A stretch of DNA of 47,773 nt from an uncultured Pseudomonadota bacterium (GTDB lineage Bacteria; Pseudomonadota; Gammaproteobacteria; Burkholderiales; CAIKXV01), in the NCBI GenBank assembly GCA_903831455.1, contig CAIKXV010000289.1:1-47773 (forward strand), in the 5' to 3' direction. The position numbers and the translations under genes were made by a program. Shown here piece by piece: positions 19,493 to 30,277 of this stretch (its first letter is position 1; each line of letters begins with the position of its first letter). The notes under the pieces were generated by a model. The model searched no databases, was not told the origin of the DNA, and saw nothing but the letters and a program-made list of their open reading frames with translations.

Positions 19493-20536
19493 TCAGTCCG
19501 CCTTCACGCCCGCATCGCGGACCACCCGCGCCCAGCGCTGCGACTCCGCGCGCATGAACTCCCCGAATTCAGCCGGGCTGGCGGAGAGCAGCACATCGGT
19601 GGCGCCGGTGGCGAAGCGCTCGCGCACCTCGGGTACCGGCAGCGCCGCGGCGATCGCCGCATGCAGGCGCCGGATCGCCTCGGGAGGCGTGCCAGTGGGG
19701 ACCAGCAGTCCCTGCCAGCTGCTCGACACGATATCCATGCCCTGCTCGCGCAGGGTGGGGACCGCCGGGTAGGCGGGGAGGCGCTTCGCGGTGGTGACCG
19801 CGAGCGGCCGCAGCTTGCCCGCGGCGACGAACCCCACGACCGAGGTCAGCGTCTGGATGGTGATGGTGACCTGCCCCGCCACGACATCGCTCACCGCCTG
19901 GCCTGCGCCGGACTTGTACGGGATATGAACCATCTTCAGGCCCGCCTGTCCCGCGAGCAGTTCCATCTGCAGGTGGCTCAGGCTGCCCGGCCCCGCCGAC
20001 GCGTAGTTGAGTTCACCCGGCCGGGCGCGCGCGAAAGCGATCAGTTCCTTCACGCTGCGTACCGGCAGCGACGGATGCACCAGCAGCATCGTGGTGGTGT
20101 CCGACACCAGCCCGACCGGCGCGAGGTCGCGCAGCGGATCGACCTTGAGGCTTGCCCCGAACACGTGGGGATTGACCGCCAGCGTCCCCACGTTGCCCAG
20201 GAAGACCGCGTAGCCATCGGGCGCCGCGCGCGCCGCGGTCTCCAGCCCGAGGTTGCCACCGGCCCCCGCGCGGTTCTCGACCACCACCGGCTGGCCCAGG
20301 TTGTCCTGCAGGCGCGGGGCGATGATCCGGGCGACGAAATCGGAGGCGCCTCCCGCTCCGAAAGGCACGATCATGCGCAGCGGACGCGCCGGCCACGACT
20401 GCGCCTGCGCCAGGGGGGCGAGCAGCGCGAGGCCCAGCGTGGCGAGCACCCAGGACCCGGCAACCCGGCCGGCGGACCACCGCCCGGTCTGCGCGGGATC
20501 GATGGCAACAGGGGAAGCGTGCAACGGGATCATCAT
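19493..20536 (-). CDS. Bug-family tripartite tricarboxylate transporter substrate-binding receptor
   Basis: 347-residue periplasmic receptor. Signal peptide core VLATLGLALLAPLAQAQ, then WPARPLRMIVPFGAGGASD, VENRAGAGGNLG, APDGYAVF, HIPYKSGAGQAV and the C-terminal RWARVVRDAGVKAD. The start is the ATG at 20534-20536, with GAGG six bases upstream; the adjacent ATG one codon later is an equal alternative. A strong 10-base-pair hairpin lies 14 bases ahead of the ribosome binding site. It is the last gene of the long minus-strand run and follows another Bug gene after 357 bases. Confidence 0.93.
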   Translation of the reverse strand: MMIPLHASPVAIDPAQTGRWSAGRVAGSWVLATLGLALLAPLAQAQSWPARPLRMIVPFGAGGASDFVARIIAPRLQDNLGQPVVVENRAGAGGNLGLETAARAAPDGYAVFLGNVGTLAVNPHVFGASLKVDPLRDLAPVGLVSDTTTMLLVHPSLPVRSVKELIAFARARPGELNYASAGPGSLSHLQMELLAGQAGLKMVHIPYKSGAGQAVSDVVAGQVTITIQTLTSVVGFVAAGKLRPLAVTTAKRLPAYPAVPTLREQGMDIVSSSWQGLLVPTGTPPEAIRRLHAAIAAALPVPEVRERFATGATDVLLSASPAEFGEFMRAESQRWARVVRDAGVKAD

Positions 20537-20893
20537 CTTCAACCTCATCGGTGGGAACGAGGCACCCGACCCGGATCGTCGGGTGCCGTGCTGGAACTGG
20601 AACGCCGCCGCACGCGGCAAGGGTGACGCACGGCAGCCGGGCGCACGGATGCAAGCACGCCCCGTGCCATTCGGGCATCCCGGGGGGTCAACTCGCCGAC
20701 GGCCGCACGCTCGATTGCCCGCGCAGTCCCCCTTCGATCCGCACCCGGCCACGGCTGGCGCCTGGCGGCCGCGGGCGGACTGTCGCCGGTTCGGCCGATC
20801 CGGCCCCGGCACGGGTGCAGCCTGCCGGCCGCGGGCGGCCACCCCGCGCGCGGGTACCGGGCATGGATTCACGACGACCGCTCCTGCCACGAC
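20537..20893. other. Intergenic region between two Bug genes
   Basis: 357 bases, very GC-rich, with many short C/G repeats (CCGGCCGCGGGCGG-like strings near 20770-20840). Apart from the hairpin at 20561-20587 no gene, promoter hexamers or terminator with a U-tract could be recognised. Confidence 0.5.
20561..20587 (-). promoter_or_regulatory. Strong hairpin in the 5' leader of the Bug gene
   Basis: GGCACCCGAC / GTCGGGTGCC form a perfect 10-base stem around a 7-base loop, ending 14 bases before the ribosome binding site of the gene at 19493-20536. No U-tract follows on the minus strand. It may protect or regulate the leader, bind a dimeric regulator as DNA, or help end transcription arriving from the upstream Bug gene. 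Confidence 0.45.
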
Positions 20894-22006
20894 TCAGAGT
20901 TCCGCGCGGATTCCCGCGCCCTTGACGATCCGCCGATAGAGTTCGATGTCCCGGCGGATCTCGGCGGCGAACTGCTCGGCACTGCCGGGCGCGGTCTCGT
21001 ACCCCAGTTCGGCGAAGCGCCGCAGCAGTTCCGGCGACCGCAGCGCGGTATTGACCTCGCGATTGAGTCGCTCGACGATCTCGCGCGGCAGACCTGCGGG
21101 CCCCACCAGCCCGAACCAGGGCGACACCTCGAAGCCGGGCAGCCCCGACTCGGCCACGGTCGGGATATCCGGCGCGGTCGGCGACCGTCGCGAGGTGGTG
21201 ATCGCCAGCGCTCGCATGCGACCGGCCTTCGCGTGGGCGAGCGCGAGGCCCATGTCGGCCATCATCAGATCCACGCTGCCGGCAATCACCTCCGTGAGCG
21301 CAGGCGCCGTGCCCTTGAACGGGATATGCACGATGCGCGTACCCGCGCTGGCGTTGAACCACTCCGCCGCCAGGCTGGACATGCTGCCCACGCCCGAGGA
21401 GCCGTAGTTCAGGTAGCCCGGCTTCGTGCGAGCCATCGCGACGAGTTCCTTCACGTTGCGCGCGGGCACGCGCGGGTTGACGACCAGCAGGTAGGGCACG
21501 CGGGCGATATTCGCCACGGGGGAGAAATCCCGCAGCGGATCGTAGGGCAGCTTCGCGTACAGGCTGGGGGCGACCGCCAGGTTGCTGGAGCCGCCCATCG
21601 CGAGCGTGTAGCCGTCCGCAGGCGAGCGGGCCGTCGCCTCGGCACCGATGGTGCCGCCCGCGCCACCGCGGTTGTCGATGATCGCCGGCTGGCCGAAGGC
21701 CTCGCCGAACCGCGCGCCGATCAGGCGGGCCAGCACGTCGTTGGGACCGCCGGGCGCGAAGGGGACGATGATGCGGATCGGCCGAGCCGGCCAGGCCGTC
21801 TGCGCCCATGCCGACGGGAGCAACCCCGCTGCCAGCGCCGCGACCAGCCCGGACAGCACTCCCGCCGCCACCGCCGGCGCGCACGTCCGTCGGGCACGCC
21901 GATCCGAGGGCGGCCGCCGGCCCGGAGGCATCCGAGCCCCCCGGGCGGACGACGGGCGATGGAGTCGAGCCCGAGTGGACGGGCGATTCGGCAGCGGGAC
22001 GGGCAT
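20894..22006 (-). CDS. Bug-family tripartite tricarboxylate transporter substrate-binding receptor
   Basis: 370-residue periplasmic receptor. A basic lead (RRARRT) and the hydrophobic core GVLSGLVAALAAGLL with cleavage after SAWAQ precede WPARPIRIIVPFAPGGPND, IDNRGGAGGTIG, SPADGYTL, HIPFKGTAPAL and the C-terminal RIVKGAGIRAEL. The ATG at 22004-22006 was chosen because GGAG lies six bases upstream; an ATG at 21929-21931 would give a more usual signal peptide length. It lies 231 bases after the ThDP enzyme gene on the same strand, suggesting it delivers the substrate of that enzyme or of its neighbours. Confidence 0.92.
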   Translation of the reverse strand: MPVPLPNRPSTRARLHRPSSARGARMPPGRRPPSDRRARRTCAPAVAAGVLSGLVAALAAGLLPSAWAQTAWPARPIRIIVPFAPGGPNDVLARLIGARFGEAFGQPAIIDNRGGAGGTIGAEATARSPADGYTLAMGGSSNLAVAPSLYAKLPYDPLRDFSPVANIARVPYLLVVNPRVPARNVKELVAMARTKPGYLNYGSSGVGSMSSLAAEWFNASAGTRIVHIPFKGTAPALTEVIAGSVDLMMADMGLALAHAKAGRMRALAITTSRRSPTAPDIPTVAESGLPGFEVSPWFGLVGPAGLPREIVERLNREVNTALRSPELLRRFAELGYETAPGSAEQFAAEIRRDIELYRRIVKGAGIRAEL

Positions 22007-22237
22007 CCGGTTCTCCGGGACTGGCGGTGGCATGTCATCCATGCATCAACCGTACCACTGCCCGCTCCCCTGCCCGGGCGCGCCGGCGTCTGCCCGTGCG
22101 CGAGCCCCCTGTCGAGACCCGGCGACGGACCCCGCGCCCGCCGCGCGTGCGCGGCGAGTGCGCTGCCACGACGGCCACGCACGCCATCCTTCGCAGCGCG
22201 CCGGCCGCGCGGCGCGGCCGGCGCCGACCCGGCGAGG

Positions 22238-23854
22238 TCAGAGCTCGCGGATGATGTCGAACTGCCGTGCGTAGCCGGAGGGGTCGATGCGCGCGACGAG
22301 CAGCGTGGACTGGTCGCGACGCGCGAGTGCCGCCGCCAGTTCGCGGCGGTAGTCGACCGCGTTGTCCACCTCGGCGCAGGCCAGGCCGAAGGCGCGCGCC
22401 AGATCGGGATAGGACGGGGACGGGAAGTCCAGCCCATGGACGCTCTTGCCCAGCTTGGACTGCTTGACCGAGATCAGGCTGTGGCCGCCGTCGGCGAAGA
22501 TCACGTAGACGATGCCCAGCCGCCGGCTCGCACCGGTCACCAGTTCCTGCACCCGCATCAGGAATCCGGCATCGCCGCACAGGCACAGCACCGGCCGCTG
22601 GGGCGAGGCGAGCGCGACCGCCTGGGCCGCCGGCACGCAGAAGCCCATGGTGGCCAGGCCGTTCGACATCAGGAAGTCGCGGGGGGCGAGCGCGTCCCAC
22701 AGCTCGACCGAGATCAGCTTGTTCGCGCCCACGTCGGTGACGACCACGGTGTCGCGCGGGGCCACCTCGCGGGCGGCGAGCACGACCTCGTTGGGCGAGA
22801 ATCCCTCCACCGGCACCGCCAGCTGCTCGCGCACCGACAGCCGGTGCCCGCTGGCCTCCTCGGCGGACCATAGCGAGCGCTCCGCCGCGGGCCGGGCCGT
22901 CACGGCCGAGGCCAGCGCAGCGAGCGATGGGCCGAGATCACCGATCAGTTCGGTCTCCGCGGCGGCGGTCTGCTCGACGTTGGGCACGCTGTCGATCCAC
23001 AGCGCCGGTACCGGCAGCGGCCACGGCCGGGGCAACAGTTCCACCGGGTCGAATCCGGCGAACACCAGGTAGTCGCAGCGCTCGATCAGCGCCTGCTCGA
23101 GCTTGCCACCCATGAACACGCCCGCGCACCACGGATCGTCGGCCGCGATCGCGCCCTTCGCCTTGGCCGAGGTGAGTACCGGCGCGCGCAGGGCGGCGGC
23201 GAACCGCGCCAGCTCCCCGGCGGGCAGGCCAAGCGCACCGATGCCCGCCAGCACGAGCGGGCGACGCGCCTGTGCGAGGCGGGCTGCCGCGGCGGACACC
23301 GCCTCCACGCCCGCGCGTGGCACCGGCGCCGGACGCGTGAGCACGAGGTCCGCCCCGGGGCGTCCGGCCACGTTGTTGGGAAAATCGACGAACACCGGAC
23401 CCGGCCGATCGGAGAGCGCGGTGCGGAAGGCCCGGCGCATCGCGGTCGCCCAGGTGTCCTCGTGCAGCGTGATCTGGGCCTTGGTGACCGGACGCATCAT
23501 CGCCAGGTGGTCGAACTGCTGGCGCAGGGCGACCTCATGCACGCCCGGCCGGTAGCGATCGGCGAAGGCGATCACCGGGAGCCGGTCGAGCGCCGCATGG
23601 GCGAGGCCGTTGGCCAGGTTGGACACGCCGGGGCCGATCGCCGAGAGCGCGACGCCAACCGTCCCGGTGCGCTCGCCGTAGATACCCGCGGCGATGACCG
23701 CCGCGGTCTCGTGCTGCGTGAGCACGAAGTCGATCCCGTGCGCCGAGCTGGCGCTCACCAGTTCCGCGGTCGCACCGCCACCGGGAATGCCGAAGATCCG
23801 GTCCACGCCCGCCTGCCGCAGCGCGGCGAGCACCTGTTCGGCGATCGTCTTCAT
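22238..23854 (-). CDS. Thiamine-diphosphate-dependent enzyme, acetolactate-synthase-like
   Basis: 538 residues with the three domains of the ALS/benzoylformate decarboxylase family: N-terminal pyrimidine-binding domain with catalytic E49 in TQHETAAV, a central domain, and a C-terminal pyrophosphate-binding domain (LCGDAGFLMRVQEL followed by FADGG). The usual metal-binding Asn-Asn is replaced by Ala-Asp, seen in some family members. No FAD-site judgement is possible by eye. It could decarboxylate a 2-oxoacid or join it to an aldehyde. It precedes two Bug receptor genes and follows an SDR gene by 137 bases, which suggests a catabolic role and argues against branched-chain amino acid synthesis; no regulatory IlvN-type subunit is present. 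Confidence 0.88.
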   Translation of the reverse strand: MKTIAEQVLAALRQAGVDRIFGIPGGGATAELVSASSAHGIDFVLTQHETAAVIAAGIYGERTGTVGVALSAIGPGVSNLANGLAHAALDRLPVIAFADRYRPGVHEVALRQQFDHLAMMRPVTKAQITLHEDTWATAMRRAFRTALSDRPGPVFVDFPNNVAGRPGADLVLTRPAPVPRAGVEAVSAAAARLAQARRPLVLAGIGALGLPAGELARFAAALRAPVLTSAKAKGAIAADDPWCAGVFMGGKLEQALIERCDYLVFAGFDPVELLPRPWPLPVPALWIDSVPNVEQTAAAETELIGDLGPSLAALASAVTARPAAERSLWSAEEASGHRLSVREQLAVPVEGFSPNEVVLAAREVAPRDTVVVTDVGANKLISVELWDALAPRDFLMSNGLATMGFCVPAAQAVALASPQRPVLCLCGDAGFLMRVQELVTGASRRLGIVYVIFADGGHSLISVKQSKLGKSVHGLDFPSPSYPDLARAFGLACAEVDNAVDYRRELAAALARRDQSTLLVARIDPSGYARQFDIIREL

Positions 23855-23991
23855 CGCATGTCCCCTGCCCTGTGCGCGCGCCGCGCGCTGTGCGTCTGTC
23901 CGTGCGCGCCCGGTACGCCGCGCACCGTCCGTTGGTCAGCCGGGCGATCGTGGCTCGCCCCGGCTCGCCGTCGCTCGCGACGGGTCCTGCA

Positions 23992-24771
23992 CTACCAGGC
24001 GGTGGTACCGCCGTCGACCGGGATCACCGCCCCGGTGACGAACCGGCTGGCGTCGGAGGCGAGCCACACCGCCACCCCCTTGATGTCGGCATCCCCGCCG
24101 GGGTGACCCAGCGGGATTTCGCGATCGATCTTCTCCGGACGCGACTCGTACACCTTGCGATTGATGTCGGTGACGAAGAAACCCGGGCAGACCGCATTGA
24201 CGCGGATCTCGTGGCGCGCCCACTTGATCGCGAGGTCGCGGGTGAAGTTGACCAGCGCGCCCTTGCTCGAACCGTAGGCGATCGAGTTGTAGGCGTCCGG
24301 GTTGCGTCCCACCAGCCCGGCGATCGAGGCGATGTTGATGATGCTGCCGCGGCGCTGCCGGATCATCTCGCGGCCGAAGGCCTGGGCGAGCATGAACGGG
24401 GCGGTGATGTTGAGGTCGAACACCTGCTGCCAGCGTTCGAGCGGCATGTCCTCGACCGGCGCCACCCACGCGCGACCCGCATTGTTGACCAGGATGTCGC
24501 AGCCGCCGAAGCGCTCCATCACCTGGTCGTGCAGGGTCGCCACCTGCTCGGGACGGGATACGTCGCACGCGGCCGACATCACCTCGCCGCCCCAGCGGCG
24601 CAGTTGCGCCTCGGCGGCGGCGAGCCGCTCGGCCTTGCGCGCGCAGATCACCACCTTCGCGCCGAACTCGGCCAGCGCATCGGCCATCTGCAATCCCAGC
24701 CCCGTGGAGCCGCCGGTGACGACAGCCACGCGGCCGGTGAGGTCGAACAGGTCCTTCAGCGGTGTGCTCAT
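23992..24771 (-). CDS. Short-chain dehydrogenase/reductase (SDR)
   Basis: 259-residue classical SDR. TGGSTGLG cofactor loop (19-26), NNAG near 97, catalytic Ser in IINIASIAG, YxxxK as YGSSK, and the C-terminal PVDGGTTAW typical of FabG-like enzymes. The residues after the second strand (CARKAERL) favour NADP(H). It would oxidise a hydroxyl or reduce a keto group on a small substrate. No strong ribosome binding site precedes the ATG at 24769-24771. It begins after a terminator, so it probably has its own promoter and leads the SDR-ThDP-Bug-Bug unit. Confidence 0.92.
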   Translation of the reverse strand: MSTPLKDLFDLTGRVAVVTGGSTGLGLQMADALAEFGAKVVICARKAERLAAAEAQLRRWGGEVMSAACDVSRPEQVATLHDQVMERFGGCDILVNNAGRAWVAPVEDMPLERWQQVFDLNITAPFMLAQAFGREMIRQRRGSIINIASIAGLVGRNPDAYNSIAYGSSKGALVNFTRDLAIKWARHEIRVNAVCPGFFVTDINRKVYESRPEKIDREIPLGHPGGDADIKGVAVWLASDASRFVTGAVIPVDGGTTAW

Positions 24772-24951
24772 GGGCGGCCTGCCTGTGGATCGAGGGGAGT
24801 CGCCGTTGATCGGGCGACGGGGATGGATCGAACGAACCGCAAGGGATGTCGCGACTCTCAGGGGGGTGGATCAGGCCGGGATCCCGTCGGCGCGGTCGGT
24901 CCGCGACGGGGGTTCCCGGAGCCCGCGCCGGGGCGGGCGGCGCCATCGAAA

Positions 24952-24972
24952 ACGCCCGCACGAAGCGGGCGT
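24952..24972 (-). terminator. Rho-independent terminator after the 457-residue protein gene
   Basis: On the minus strand ACGCCCGC, loop TTCGT, GCGGGCGT, then TTTTC: an 8-base GC-rich stem followed by a short U-run. It begins 24 bases after the stop at 24996. It is the clearest intrinsic terminator in the window and separates this gene from the SDR gene downstream. Confidence 0.75.
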
Positions 24973-24995
24973 CACGAGCGGCGACCGGACGGCGC

Positions 24996-26369
24996 TCAGG
25001 CGCCCCAGGGGCGGATGGCCTGCTTGAGCTTCGCGTAGCCGTCCAGGTACTTCGGACGCACCGGCTCGTAGATCGAGTCGAAGGTCGCGAGCTGGTCGTC
25101 CAGCCACTTGTGCAGCTTCGTGTTGCCCGGGTTCGCCGCCTTGTAGGCGTCGTTGATCAGCACGAAGTGGATGCGCGGATCGTAGGGATCCTTGGTGCCG
25201 CCCACCGTCTCGTCGCCGGCGAGCAGGCGCGTGAGCATTGCATCGGCCGAGCCCAGCGTCTGTTCGAAGATCGGCTCGCCCTGCATCCGGTACATGACGC
25301 TGGTCATGTCGCGACCGTTCTTCATGGTGAAGCCCATGTCGGACCAGACCTTGTTGATGTCGGCACCCGCCTTCACCTGGTCGATCACCATCTGGCCCCA
25401 GTCGCGCAGCACCTGCGGGGCGTCGGCCATCAGGTCGGTGAGGCGGTCGCCGTCCAGATCGGTGGCGATCACGATCGCCTTGCGCTGGCGGATCATGTCG
25501 TGCAGGAGGATGCCGTAGTTGGTGTCGGAGATGTGTTCGCTGATCTCGCCCCCCCAGTTCTCCATGCCCGCCTTGAAGTCCTTGGGCAGCAGGGCGACGA
25601 TCGCGTCGACGTTCTCCTTGTGCTCCTCGTAGGCATCCACCGCGTAGGCGCGGGTGAGCTTGAACTTCGTGCCCTTCATCATCCAGCGCAGCAGGCCGGC
25701 GTTGATCGCATCCTCCTGGGCCTGCGTGGGCTTGGTGGCGATGCGACCGATCTGGCCGGTCTCGTGCACCATCTTGAGGAACAGGCGCCCGGCGTAGGCC
25801 ATGCGGATGCCGGGGGTGTTCATCTCGGAGTGGACGATGCCGGTCTCGCGATCGACCTTGAACTTCTTCTTGTCCTGCGAGTAGGGCAGGCAGGGCATGC
25901 AGCGAACCGTCGTGATCGTGCCGTAGGGCCGCACGTTGCAGTACACGCCCGCAGCGGTGCGCAGCGGCGCGTTCGCCGACTTGCCCAGCACCACCACCTT
26001 CTTGCCGCCGTCGTTGACCAGGAAGTCGCCGGCCGTCGACCACTTGATCGACGTGTAGGGCAGCTTGCCGAACCATTCGAGGCTGGCGAGCTTCGTGTCG
26101 TGCCGGAACTGCGCCATCATCGGCACGCCGATGTAGGGCAGGCCGAGGACGTCGAGGGCCATCAGCGTGCCGTTGAGCGCGAAGGTGTCGGTGAACGTAT
26201 GCGCGACCGGCTTGACGTCGGCGGTGGCGTTGCCGCCTTCCCACAGGATGGCGTCAGGGGAGCCATCCACCTTCACGGCCGAACGCTTGTAGATCGAGTC
26301 CAGGTACTTGAACAGGTCGCCGCTGGCTTCCTCCTGGGCGATCTTGAGCAGGTCGAGGCGGTCGGTCAT
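24996..26369 (-). CDS. Unrecognised 457-residue cytoplasmic protein
   Basis: I do not recognise this family. The protein has no signal peptide or membrane segment. It contains many Lys and Asp residues and few Ala/Arg runs, unlike its neighbours, suggesting a well-expressed soluble enzyme. Notable parts are a helical N-terminus (MTDRLDLLKIAQEEASGDLF), a Cys cluster YCNVRPYG...RCMPCLPYSQ around residues 143-165, a WMMKGTKFKLTRAYAVDAYEEHKENVDAIV region and the acidic ATDLDGDRLTDLM near 320. Cys-x2-Cys with a third Cys could bind metal or a cluster. GGAG lies seven bases before the ATG at 26367-26369, and a terminator ends the gene. It lies between an acyl-CoA dehydrogenase and an SDR gene in a catabolic run. 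Confidence 0.85.
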   Translation of the reverse strand: MTDRLDLLKIAQEEASGDLFKYLDSIYKRSAVKVDGSPDAILWEGGNATADVKPVAHTFTDTFALNGTLMALDVLGLPYIGVPMMAQFRHDTKLASLEWFGKLPYTSIKWSTAGDFLVNDGGKKVVVLGKSANAPLRTAAGVYCNVRPYGTITTVRCMPCLPYSQDKKKFKVDRETGIVHSEMNTPGIRMAYAGRLFLKMVHETGQIGRIATKPTQAQEDAINAGLLRWMMKGTKFKLTRAYAVDAYEEHKENVDAIVALLPKDFKAGMENWGGEISEHISDTNYGILLHDMIRQRKAIVIATDLDGDRLTDLMADAPQVLRDWGQMVIDQVKAGADINKVWSDMGFTMKNGRDMTSVMYRMQGEPIFEQTLGSADAMLTRLLAGDETVGGTKDPYDPRIHFVLINDAYKAANPGNTKLHKWLDDQLATFDSIYEPVRPKYLDGYAKLKQAIRPWGA

Positions 26370-26679
26370 CTGAAGTCTCCGTACGAGGGGGCGAGTCGGG
26401 TCGTGGCCCTGGGGCGACGCCGGGGCGGCAGCCGGGCACGGGCCCGGTGCGGCGATCACGGCGGCGGCGGTCGGCGGCTCTGCGGGCACGTTCCCGACCT
26501 TGCGATTGCCGATGATACCAAGTGTCGTCGCCGGCTGCCCGACGCGGCGCCGATCGGCGGCACCCCCGCACGGCGGCGGGGGCCCCGGTCCACCCCACCC
26601 GCGCCGGGGCCTCGCCGCCGGGTCGCGTGCCGGCGACCGCGCGGCCCGGCGTGCGCGAGGCGACCCGCGCCCTGCCCGG
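26370..26679. other. Intergenic region between acyl-CoA dehydrogenase and the unrecognised gene
   Basis: 310 bases without a gene. The only notable content is the ribosome binding site of the unrecognised gene and the TATCAT box at 26512-26517; the rest is GC-rich DNA without repeats or clear hairpins. Confidence 0.5.
26512..26517 (-). promoter_or_regulatory. Candidate -10 element upstream of the unrecognised gene
   Basis: TATCAT on the minus strand, within an AT-richer patch (26505-26525) of the otherwise GC-rich 26370-26679 gap. It would give a leader of about 135 bases. No convincing -35 box is visible. The remainder of this 310-base gap holds nothing I can support. Confidence 0.35.
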
Positions 26680-27858
26680 TCAGTCGCGCAGCAACTCGCG
26701 GGCGATCAGCGAGCGCTGGATCTCCGAGGTGCCTTCGTAGATGCGCGTGATGCGCACGTCACGAGCCACGGTCTCGATCCCGAAGTCCCGCATGTAGCCC
26801 AGCCCGCCGTGCAGCTGGATGGCGGTGTCGGCGATCCGTCCCACCGCCTCGGTCGCGTGCAGCTTGGCCATCGAGGCCTCGACCGTGCCCCGCGCGCCAC
26901 TCATCAGCGTGCGGATCGCGCGCAGCGTCAGCAGGCGCGAGGCATCACGCGCCACGGCCATGTCGGCGAGCATCCACTGAAGGCCCTGGTAGTCGGCCAG
27001 CCGGTGCCCGCCCTGCTCGCGCGTGCGCAGGTAGTCGACGGTGCGCTCGATCAGCCGGTCCATGATGCCACAGCAGCGTGCGGCGACCGTCACCCGGCCG
27101 GCCGTGAGCGTCTTCAACGCCTGCACGTAGCCCATGCCCTCGGGGCCGAGCAGGTTGGCCGCCGGCACTTCGCACTGCTGCATGACCACCGCGGCGGTTC
27201 CGCAGCCGTGCATGCCCATCTTGCGCTCGTTCGGCCCGACCGACAGGCCCGGAAAGCCGCGCTCGACGATGAAGGCCGAGATGCCGCGCGCGCCCGCGGA
27301 GCGGTCGGTCACCGCCATCACCGTGAACACGTCGGCCATCGGCGCGTTGGTGATGTAGATCTTCTCGCCGTCGAGGATCCAGCGATCGCCGCGCCGCACC
27401 GCGGTGGTGCGCATCGCCGCGGGGTCCGATCCGGCCTGGGGCTCGGTCAGCGCGAAGCAGCCGATCGCCTCGCCCGCGGCCATGCGGGGCAGATAGCGGC
27501 GCTTCTGCTCCTCGCTGCCCAGGTCGACGATGCCGCGGGTGCTGATGCCGGTGTGGTTGGCGATGATCGTGGCGAAGCCGTAGTTGCTGCGGCCCAGTTC
27601 CTGCTCGATCGCGCACTTGCCGGCAAGGTCGAGGCCGATGCCGCCGTAGGCCTCGGGGATGGTGAGGCCGAACAGCCCCATCCCGCGGGCCATCGCCAGC
27701 AGTTCGGCCGGCACGCTGTCGTTCTCCTCGATCCAGCGCGAGCGCGGCTCGACCTCGCCCTCGATGAAGCGGCGCACCTCGGCGGCGAGCGCGGCGACCT
27801 CCGTCGGGCTGGCCGACAGGGCGGCGAATTCTTCGGTCTGGGCAACGGAACCCGTCAT
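26680..27858 (-). CDS. Acyl-CoA dehydrogenase
   Basis: 392-residue flavoprotein of the acyl-CoA dehydrogenase family, full length. FAD-binding signatures are CFALTEPQAGSDPAAM and the WILDGEKIYITNA strand; the C-terminal helical domain carries QLHGGLGYMRD and the catalytic base E375 in IYEGTSEIQ. It introduces an alpha,beta double bond into an acyl-CoA and passes electrons to ETF. The catalytic Glu is present, so it is a true dehydrogenase and not one of the desulfinase-type relatives. GGAG is about ten bases before the ATG at 27856-27858. It follows the ADP-forming synthetase (286-base gap), which would supply its acyl-CoA. Confidence 0.94.
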   Translation of the reverse strand: MTGSVAQTEEFAALSASPTEVAALAAEVRRFIEGEVEPRSRWIEENDSVPAELLAMARGMGLFGLTIPEAYGGIGLDLAGKCAIEQELGRSNYGFATIIANHTGISTRGIVDLGSEEQKRRYLPRMAAGEAIGCFALTEPQAGSDPAAMRTTAVRRGDRWILDGEKIYITNAPMADVFTVMAVTDRSAGARGISAFIVERGFPGLSVGPNERKMGMHGCGTAAVVMQQCEVPAANLLGPEGMGYVQALKTLTAGRVTVAARCCGIMDRLIERTVDYLRTREQGGHRLADYQGLQWMLADMAVARDASRLLTLRAIRTLMSGARGTVEASMAKLHATEAVGRIADTAIQLHGGLGYMRDFGIETVARDVRITRIYEGTSEIQRSLIARELLRD

Positions 27859-28144
27859 GTCGGCTCACTCCGTCGGGGCGGCGGCCCGTGGCGGGCGGCG
27901 CCGGTGGAAGAAGTCGCCCGGGCCGTGGCATCGGCCGGGCGTACGGCCCGAAGTGTGCCCGGGTACGGTCGCCGCGTCAGCATCGCGCCCGAGCCCGTGG
28001 TGCCCGGCCCGATCCTCCCGCGCACGCAGGCGCGGGAAGACGGCCACGGGTGACGTGCGCGCCGACCCCGGGACCTGACCGGACCGGCAGGCGCGGGGGA
28101 CACGGTCGGACCCGCCTTGCGAGCACCGCGCTTGCCGGGATCGG

Positions 28145-30277
28145 TCAGGCCGAACCCGCGCGCGGGCGCGCCAGCGCATCGAGGGCGCGCACGCCGCGCC
28201 CCCGCTCCAGCACGACGAGCGGATTGATGTCCAGTTCGGACAGCCCGTCGCGCAGATCGACCGCCATCGCCGAGAGCGCCAGCAGCGCATCGACCAGCGC
28301 TTCCACGTCCGCCTTCGGCCGGCCGCGAGCGCCATCGAGCAGCGGGAAGCACTTGAGTTCGCGCACCATCGCCTCGGCGACCGAACGGGTCAGCGGCGCG
28401 AGGCGGAAGCTCGTGTCCCGGAACACCTCCGCGTAGATGCCCCCCAGGCCCACCATGACCGCCGGGCCGAACAGCGGATCGTTCTGCACGCCGACGATGA
28501 GTTCGGTGCCTCCCGAGACCATCTCCTGCACCGAGATGCCCTCGATGCGGGCTCCGGGCACGACGGCGCGGGCGCTCGCCATGATCGAGTCCCACGCACG
28601 CTCGACCGCTGCGGCATCGGCCAGCCCGAGGGCCACGCCACCGGCCTCGGTCTTGTGCGCGATGTCGGCCGACTGCACCTTCATCACCACCGGGAATCCG
28701 ATCTCGCGCGCGGCAGCCACCGCCTGCGAGCGGTCGGTGGCGAGCACCTCGCGCGTGACCGGGATGCCGTACTGCGCGACCAGGGCCTTCGCCTCGTGCT
28801 CGGCGAGGTCGGCGGTGCGGGCGGCGAGCAGCGCCCTCGCCTGCGGGCGCTCGAGCGAGAGCACCGGTTCGGCCCGCTCGCGCCCGCGCCGACGCTGGGC
28901 CTCGGCGAAACGGGTGAGCGCCGCCAGCGCCTTCGCGCACGCGACCGGCGTGGGGTAGCGGGGAATCCCGGCCTCCGCAAGCGTGCGGTAGGCCGCCTCG
29001 GCGAACTTGGTGCGCGCGCTCCACGCGGTCATGATGGGCTTGGAGGTCGTGCGGTCGAGTTCGACCAGTTCCTTCGCGCGGGCGAGCGCGATGTCCCCCT
29101 GCAGCGACGCGTTGATCACCACGATCGAATCCACCGAGGGGTCATCGACGATGATGCGCATCGCCTGCGCGAGCATCTCCGGGTTGTTGAAGATGCCGGC
29201 GGTGATGTCGATCGGGTTCTGCCAGGAGCCGAAGGCGGGGATGATGTCCTTCAGTTTCCGCTCGCTCTCGGGCGTGAGCGGCCCCACCGACAGCCCGGAT
29301 TCCACGCACTGGTCGGCCATCAGGATGCCGCCGCCCCCGGAGATGGTGACGATCGCCACCCGGTTGCCGGCCGGCCGCTTGCCACTGGCGAACGCCTGCG
29401 TGTAGTCGATGAGTTCGTTGGCATCACGCACCCGGATCATGCCGCGCTGCTCGAACGCCGCCTCGTAGAGCGCCAGCGCGCCGCCCAGGTTGGCGGTATG
29501 GGAGAGCGCGGCACGGCCGCCCACTTCGGTGTTGCCCACCTTCCACACCAGCACCGGCTTGTCGGCGAGCAGCGCCCGGTCGCCCACCTCGAGCAGGCGG
29601 TACGCGTCCTTCACCCCTTCCATGTAGGCGCCGATCACGCGCGTCTGCGGATCGCGCACGAACCAGTCGATGAAATCGGTGGTGGTGAGGCCCGACTCGT
29701 TGCCGGTACTCACCAGGCTGCGAAAACCCAGGCCCGCTTCCTCGGCGAGGATGATGACCCCGTAGCCGAAGCCACCGGACTGCGTGGTCATCGACAGCGT
29801 GCCCTTGCGGAAGCAGTCGCCGGAGAAGGCCGAGCCGAAGCCGGCGTACACGTCGTCGGTCACGCCGATCATGCCCTGGCAGTTCGGCCCCACGACGCCG
29901 ATGCCGTATTCGCGCGCGATGGCCGCGATCTCGGCCTGCAGGGCGCGTCCCGCCTCGCCGGTCTCGGAGAAGCCCGAGCTGAAGATGATGCAGAAGGCAA
30001 TGCCCTTGCGCCCGACCTCGCGCAGCATCCCCGGCACGCCGGCGGCGGCCACCAGGATGAGCGCGAGATCCGGCACCTCGGGCAGCGCCTCGACCGACGG
30101 GTAGCAGCGGTGGCCCTCGACCTCGTCGTACTTCGGGTTGACCGGATAGAGCCGGCCACGGTAGCCGTGTCCGGCCAGCGCCCACAGCGGCTGGCCGCTG
30201 ATGCTCTTCACGTTGCGCGAGGCGCCGATCACGGCGACCGATCGCGGGTTGAACAGTCGCTCCAGGTCCTGGCTCAT
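28145..30277 (-). CDS. ADP-forming acyl-CoA synthetase (acetate--CoA ligase family), fused
   Basis: 710 residues combining the alpha-type half (CoA-binding Rossmann domain from [10 protein letters not shown] at about 14, succinyl-CoA-ligase-like domains with [14 protein letters not shown] holding the active-site His) and the beta-type ATP-grasp half (about 490-690, with [27 protein letters not shown]). This fused order occurs in bacterial acyl-CoA synthetases (NDP-forming) that activate small organic acids using ATP, releasing ADP and phosphate. The ATG at 30275-30277 has GGAG eight bases upstream; the open frame before it is non-coding. It heads the minus-strand catabolic run and is divergent from tsaD. 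Confidence 0.92.

Follow-up and report, generated by a model that had tools for sequence, protein, structure and literature searches.

Three types of isocitrate dehydrogenases (IDHs), I, II, and III, are distinguished at present (PMC10574006), and the substrate-binding residues of types I and II are said to show high conservation (PMC4813160). The window analyzed here, a single stretch of 47,773 nucleotides, encodes a 457-aa protein (P0001) that we take, with a probability of about 0.9, to be a highly divergent IDH lying outside the models of all three types. This identity is based on a profile match, a predicted fold, a conserved motif, the phyletic pattern, and the chromosomal locus, and the activity would follow from these taken together. 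No description of this family, or of a fourth or new IDH type, was found in the open-licence PMC literature.

The models of the three types, TIGR00183 (type I), TIGR00127 (type II), and PF03971 (type III), give no match to P0001. Type I NADP-IDH (Icd; TIGR00183, PF00180) and P0001 have in common the SxNx3Rx9R and DxxxD motifs, a chromosomal slot next to clpS-clpA in some genomes, and, as proposed here, the same reaction, but P0001 differs in the missing HMM match and in an extra N-terminal stretch. The spacing also differs in our alignment, with R147 and R156 of P0001 being 9 residues apart and K213 and D282 being 69 apart, versus 24 and 51 for the counterparts in the Icd L166_0. The type II enzymes (TIGR00127) resemble the family in that residues 48 to 453 of the second structure model align with residues 3 to 406 of human IDH1 and in the DGDxxxD stretch, which is also present in P0002 and P0004; they differ in the missing HMM match, in a two-sequence profile that reaches only 0.3% with the family, and in having S/T-P-N-G-T-I-R without the R-x9-R spacing. 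The type III monomeric IDH (PF03971) is found at the identical chromosomal slot in two genomes (G047 and G033) and is the top Foldseek match of our second structure model, but it is a protein of ca. 740 aa without a profile signal with the family (0.1%). 3-Isopropylmalate dehydrogenase (LeuB) shares fold matches, LR-x9-R, a YxNxRP-type strand, and DxxxD with P0001, whereas it is without S-x-N (0/21), and the genome that carries P0001 has a separate LeuB.

The P0001 gene is a minus-strand open reading frame (ORF) with an ATG start and without an internal stop. The gene and its flanking signals are as follows.

24996..26369, minus strand: gene encoding P0001, proposed to be a divergent isocitrate dehydrogenase (open frame and conservation, with fold, profile, phyletic, and locus evidence)

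26376..26380, minus strand: GGAGA, a Shine-Dalgarno-like sequence 6 nt upstream of the ATG, read from the sequence

24949..24973, minus strand: terminator-like hairpin with 9 pairs, a 5-nt loop, and a short T run, from the fold of 24938-24998

The ORF is a real gene, as homologues occur in the genomes of relatives and in contig-collection loci at 76 to 90% identity. The initial annotation had described a single-gene unit with its own ribosome binding site, a candidate promoter, and an intrinsic terminator. The GGAGA agrees with the ribosome binding site, and a hairpin is present after the stop, with only four T following its stem; the promoter part is unsupported, because a scan of 23500-28500 gave no promoter-like site on either strand. 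The hairpin 3' of the stop had a z score of -2.80, with 0/200 shuffles as stable in the fold of 24938-24998, and a simple scan of 23500-28500 gave 2 terminator-like sites versus 1.2 expected. The unusual composition noted earlier was confirmed, as P0001 is higher in Lys (7.4% versus 1.5 to 3.1%) and Asp (8.5% versus 3.1 to 6.2%) and lower in Arg (4.8% versus 7.6 to 10.5%) than the five neighbors measured. The neighbors are also as described: an acyl-CoA dehydrogenase gene flanks the P0001 gene at one end, and SDR, ThDP enzyme, and TctC genes flank it at the other. Two tandem TctC-type (Bug) solute receptor genes (19493-20671 and 20894-22042, minus strand) adjoin the ThDP enzyme gene. On the plus strand, a 634-codon open frame (24846-26750) runs antisense to the P0001 gene and is probably a by-product of high G+C content and codon usage.

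Matches to P0001 were found in 14 of the 60 genomes of relatives, including its own genome, with 13 being near full length and one being cut at a contig end. An order-wide sample contained the gene in 27 of 399 genomes, again including its own, and class-wide (369) and phylum-wide (398) genome samples gave no match beyond the own genome; tblastn identified no homologue in plasmids and phages. In a contig collection, the best 80 of 117 confirmed matches, which are the loci compared here, had identities of 76 to 90%, and none of these 80 was below 76%. The record titles of the homologues are mostly those of betaproteobacterial or Burkholderiales metagenome-assembled genomes (MAGs), with some other taxa, and five gene-bearing records carry the names of cultured species, namely, Sheuella amnicola, Zwartia vadi, Z. 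hollandica, Z. panacis, and Jezberella montanilacus. Several MAG titles (L021, L040, L041, L086, L092, and others) name other groups, among them "Bordetella parapertussis," "Spirochaetes," "Thermoflexus hugenholtzii," and "Deltaproteobacteria," and may reflect mislabelling, contamination, or transfer. A total of 93 near-full-length homologues were compared, including that of the window (L001), and 83 of them are distinct; L015 to L022 repeat genes of the window's genus among L001 to L010, and motif counts are therefore given on distinct proteins. The mean column identity in an alignment of 38 family sequences is 88%.

In agreement with the initial annotation, which recognized no family for the protein, searches of P0001 against Pfam, NCBIfam, and PHROGs and of the PDB sequences, both by phmmer and by profile, gave chance-level matches at most. 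The NCBIfam scan returned a single match, a ferredoxin oxidoreductase model at an E value of 0.13, and PF00180 (Iso_dh) had no match at an E value of ≤10 for P0001 or the 38 aligned family members. Homology to the Iso_dh superfamily is detectable by profile comparison. With hhalign, the family profile (94 rows; Neff 1.4) matched an alignment combining the Icd, LeuB, tartrate-type, and other Iso_dh sequences of related genomes at 92.7% over 141 columns, with an E value of 4.4e-7 for the one comparison. Among the controls, the best of 80 shuffles reached 12.0%, seven unrelated families reached 0.5% at most, and seven reversed profiles reached 0.4% at most; on the same scale, Icd matched the two-sequence eukaryote-type IDH profile at 89.3% and LeuB at 99.8%. 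The matches of the family with single groups were weak, at 2.6% for Icd, 0.8% for LeuB, 2.2% for tartrate-type, and 19.1% for "arch" proteins, and, besides the eukaryote-type and monomeric profiles given above, Icd plus eukaryote-type reached 1.2%. When groups were left out of the combined profile, the match was 90.3% without Icd, 76.3% without the tartrate-type proteins, 50.8% without LeuB, and 35.6% without "arch," and a reduced profile of Icd with two "arch" rows gave 30.4%. The confident pairings are those of KSANAPLRTAAGVYCNVRP with RSINVALRQQLDLYVCLRP of Icd and of DLDGDRLTD with NLNGDYISD. In segment-wise comparisons, only the DLDGDRLTD part gave a signal (19 to 26%), with none from the N- and C-terminal segments, and global-mode hhalign of the family against Iso_dh gave no alignment.

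Structure prediction points to the same superfamily. An AlphaFold model from 38 sequences is of moderate confidence (pLDDT 68; pTM 0.57), and a second model of another lead member, from 78 sequences, also has a pLDDT of 68, with the pTM of the two models being 0.56 to 0.57. For the first model, all 18 Foldseek matches at an E value of ≤0.001 are IPMDH or IDH, with a whole-chain TM of ≤0.32, and each of the 50 rows that VIA displayed is likewise an IPMDH or IDH (Z 9.8 to 11.0), with a tight core of 127 residues at an rmsd of 3.0 Å to 4xxv_A. The relative placement of the parts of the model is not trusted, because the long VIA alignments have rmsd values of 12 to 13. For the second model, Foldseek gave no match at an E value of ≤0.001; monomeric IDH was on top with the best E value of 2e-3, and two RNase J2 chains were among the first 12. 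VIA, which was limited to chains ranked by Foldseek, placed IDH on top for this model (Z 9.7 to 10.5), and it is in this comparison that residues 48 to 453 align with human IDH1. For both models, the VIA rows consist mostly of IDHs that presumably belong to the eukaryote type (type II). P0001 would keep the beta-decarboxylating-dehydrogenase fold at approximately residues 48 to 453, with ca. 47 extra residues on the N-terminal side.

The residues that may form the active site are conserved throughout the family, and the corresponding features, with counts on distinct homologues, are as follows.

25929..25979, minus strand: proposed isocitrate-binding motif S131-A-N133-APL-R137-x9-R147, codons 131-147 (83/83; paired by hhalign with RSINVALRQQLDLYVCLRP of Icd)

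25881..25904, minus strand: R156-x6-Y163, proposed substrate Arg and catalytic Tyr, with C157 and C160 between them, codons 156-163 (R156 83/83, Y163 82/83; from spacing)

25731..25733, minus strand: K213, proposed catalytic Lys, codon 213 (83/83; after strand 207-212 and before helix 218-231 in both models)

25524..25526, minus strand: D282, proposed third metal/substrate Asp, acting in the partner subunit (83/83; at the junction of strand 273-280 and helix 281-293, role deduced)

25434..25448, minus strand: D308-RLT-D312 in DLDGDRLTD, proposed metal pair, codons 308-312 (both 83/83; aligned by hhalign with NLNGDYISD of Icd)

25242..25265, minus strand: E369-QTL-GSAD376, proposed cofactor loop, codons 369-376 (E369, G373, S374, and D376 83/83)

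Nine of these residues (S131, N133, R137, R147, R156, K213, D282, D308, and D312) are invariant in the 83 distinct homologues, and the one exception at Y163 is an F in L035. The Phe163 of L035, in place of the proposed catalytic Tyr, may be due to a sequencing error or may reflect an altered activity. By motif position, the counterparts in the Icd L166_0 would be S114, N116, R120, R130, R154, Y161, K231, D282, D306, and D310, whose roles we take to be those in E. coli Icd, where the S, N, R, and R residues of the RSINVALRQQLDLYVCLRP stretch presumably bind isocitrate. The S-N-R-R, R-Y (7), and D-D (4) spacings are equal in the family and in L166_0, and the order of secondary structure in both models (strand-K213-helix, strand-D282-helix, and strand-DLDGD) fits an Icd-like active site. 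Because hhalign aligns the middle region otherwise, matching the Icd Lys to K251, a position with 47 K and 36 R among the 83 homologues, we infer the roles of R156, Y163, K213, and D282 from spacing and secondary structure, by which they would be equivalent to the third Arg, the Tyr, the Lys, and the partner Asp of Icd. The E369-QTL-GSAD376 loop resembles the superfamily cofactor loop by eye, its hhalign pairing with EATHGTAP being at 0.7%, far under significance, and NAD+ as the cofactor is a guess from this sequence.

The putative isocitrate-binding S-x-N-x3-R-x9-R and the putative metal-binding D-x3-D, as expected of an IDH, are both present in the family. On distinct proteins, S-x-N-x3-R-x9-R is found in 83/83 family members and 31/32 Icd-like proteins versus 0/21 of the LeuB group and 0/10 of the tartrate-type proteins. 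It also occurs in 2 of 21 other Iso_dh proteins (L146 and L147), both of which come from genomes that lack the gene (G017 and G031), and L147 resembles an NAD-type IDH model, under its cutoff. The Iso_dh proteins fetched from gene-carrying genomes, which are part of those found, are without this motif.

Genomes that carry the gene generally lack the three known IDH types searched for. The 27 gene-carrying genomes were compared with 46 gene-lacking genomes of the same order, which are all of the gene-lacking genomes from the search of 60 relatives, for Icd (TIGR00183, E ≤1e-100), monomeric IDH (PF03971), and eukaryote-type IDH (TIGR00127, E ≤1e-20). Icd was found in 1/27 gene-carrying genomes (G876) versus 39/46 gene-lacking genomes, monomeric IDH was found in 0/27 versus 7/46 (G027, G033, G036, G040, G047, G053, and G058), and eukaryote-type IDH was found in 1/27 (G012) versus 2/46 (G031 and G050). 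All 46 gene-lacking genomes thus have a known IDH, the seven without Icd having monomeric (five) or eukaryote-type (two) enzymes, whereas none of the three searched types was found in 25 of the 27 genomes with the gene. Among the gene-carrying genomes that are ≥90% complete and ≤5% contaminated, 17/19 lack all three, and the own genome of P0001 (G000) has no TIGR00183 match at an E value of ≤1e-100 and no TIGR00127 match at an E value of ≤1e-20. Fisher's test gave p values of 1.5e-17 when genomes were counted and 1.1e-6 when genera were counted (8 versus 46), neither of which fully corrects for kinship, and 11 of the 27 gene-carrying genomes belong to one genus. The Icd-like protein of G876 (L193; G876:C153; P0003) scores 550.6 bits, under the TIGR00183 cutoff of 567.3, and passes PRK07006.1. 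This protein is without the S-x-N-x3-R isocitrate motif (SRSLSAALR) and may have another substrate. 2-Oxoglutarate dehydrogenase E1 is present in 27/27 gene-carrying genomes, although contig ends truncate some of the genes, one gene contains an internal TGA, and the fragment in G840 is under the cutoff; the oxidative cycle therefore needs an isocitrate step in these genomes. Three Zwartia genomes are said to encode the TCA cycle in the Z. vadi paper, the text of which lacks the word "isocitrate" (PMC10535154).

The chromosomal position of the gene also points to an IDH. clpS and clpA adjoin the family gene, which occurs there in both orientations, in 31 of the 80 loci (best 80 of 117 matches). 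Other locus genes are rluE-like (21/80), mnmA (20/80), and malate synthase A (18/80, of which 17 are among the 31 clpS-clpA loci), these names resting on one representative each, with RluE and CspD being loose: the RluE representative is under the equivalog cutoff and over the pseudouridine synthase subfamily cutoff, and the cold-shock representative passes CspE and narrowly misses CspD. Icd or monomeric IDH was found in 0/80 family loci within the stretch of sequence examined. For comparison, 20 IDH-centered regions were picked by the analyst from 20 of the 46 gene-lacking genomes, and clpS-clpA was present in 14 of them, 10 being centered on Icd, 2 on both Icd and monomeric IDH (G058 and G036), and 2 on monomeric IDH alone (G047 and G033). 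The slot thus holds an IDH of one type or another. Across the order, it is occupied by Icd, by monomeric IDH, by the two together, or by the new gene, in the manner of a general "IDH slot" (L216 to L235 and L023 to L094). In the other 49 of the 80 loci, those of the window's genus included, no clpS-clpA was seen, the gene being elsewhere or the contig being too short. A gene resembling those of flavin monooxygenases, by eye of the Baeyer-Villiger type, lies 0.9 to 3.0 kb upstream in the same orientation in 18/80 loci (L042, L044, L047, L048, L050, L051, L053, L054, L057, L058, L062, L064, L066, L068, L070, L071, L074, and L078).

The initial annotation had suggested a catabolic enzyme of unknown chemistry in which a Cys cluster with C-x2-C could bind a metal or cluster, and it had named variable Cys positions as grounds for giving up the metal site. 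P0001 does have three Cys residues (C144, C157, and C160), and catabolic-type genes adjoin its gene in the window. C144 is invariant in 83/83 distinct homologues, but it sits in a strand where the NAD-IDH-like L147 also has a Cys (YCNLR), and C157 and C160 are Cys in only 10/83, all from the window's genus (L001 to L010), with most other homologues having F and G at these positions. By the annotation's own measure, the metal or cluster site is therefore rejected, with conservation holding for C144 and failing for the C-x2-C pair. The catabolic reading is unsupported, because the window's neighbors are not those of most homologues and the gene is in the IDH slot in 31/80 loci, and a conserved catabolic operon is rejected for the first of these reasons. 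A catabolic enzyme that uses the Cys cluster to bind a metal or cluster is thus hardly credible.

A closer alternative is that P0001 acts as a beta-decarboxylating dehydrogenase on a different 2-hydroxy acid, such as isopropylmalate, homoisocitrate, tartrate, or a malate-like compound, with a 345-aa Iso_dh paralogue acting as the IDH. The superfamily is common to both readings, R-x9-R is widespread in it, and seven Iso_dh paralogues of the own genome (L118 to L124) score over the Pfam cutoff; at least three of these are without an assigned substrate, because only LeuB and one tartrate dehydrogenase among the five scanned pass an NCBIfam cutoff. However, S-x-N precedes R-x9-R in all family members and in 0/7 of these paralogues, and it is missing from the remaining Iso_dh sequences retrieved from genomes with the gene. 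On this motif distribution, a LeuB- or tartrate-type role for P0001 and a paralogue as the IDH are rejected, and, as the genomes with the gene tend to be those without the three IDH types and the gene occupies the icd slot at some loci, another substrate is unlikely. P0001 might also not have this fold, with the fold and profile matches being weak artifacts and the phyletic pattern reflecting shared ancestry. The moderate confidence of the models, the weak single-group profiles, and the confinement of the gene-carrying genomes from the relatives', order, class, and phylum searches to one order would suit this explanation, but four kinds of evidence agree, and the shuffled, reversed, and unrelated controls are clean. 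Moreover, two families (f11 and f22) are each represented among the 73 genomes by one genome with the gene and one without it, a known IDH occurring only in the latter, and the slot evidence is independent of similarity to IDH, all of which makes an artifact very unlikely.

P0001 is most likely a central-metabolism enzyme with a known chemistry and an unrecognized sequence. In the proposed mechanism, S131, N133, R137, R147, and R156 would hold isocitrate, and D308 and D312, together with D282 of the partner subunit in a presumed dimer, would hold Mg2+ or Mn2+. The hydride from C2 would go to NAD+ or NADP+, and oxalosuccinate would then lose CO2 with the help of the metal to give 2-oxoglutarate, with Y163 and K213 probably handling the proton transfers. 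In most carrier genomes, P0001 would replace the classical enzymes in the conversion of isocitrate to 2-oxoglutarate in the citric acid cycle.

What is new here is the sequence family and the displacement of the known IDHs, and the chemistry is ordinary. The family very probably represents a fourth sequence type of IDH, an extreme divergence within Iso_dh that has displaced types I to III in several Burkholderiales, partly in the icd slot, and a core enzyme that family-based annotation misses. The claim is directly testable, because five of the gene-bearing records carry the names of cultured species. If it is true, this type would stand beside the three known from the literature (PMC10574006), and a central enzyme would have been replaced, in some genomes without a change of locus, by a relative that sequence comparison hardly recognizes any more. 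The family models tried miss this probable core enzyme of the citric acid cycle, and metabolic reconstructions may consequently lack the isocitrate step or patch it wrongly.
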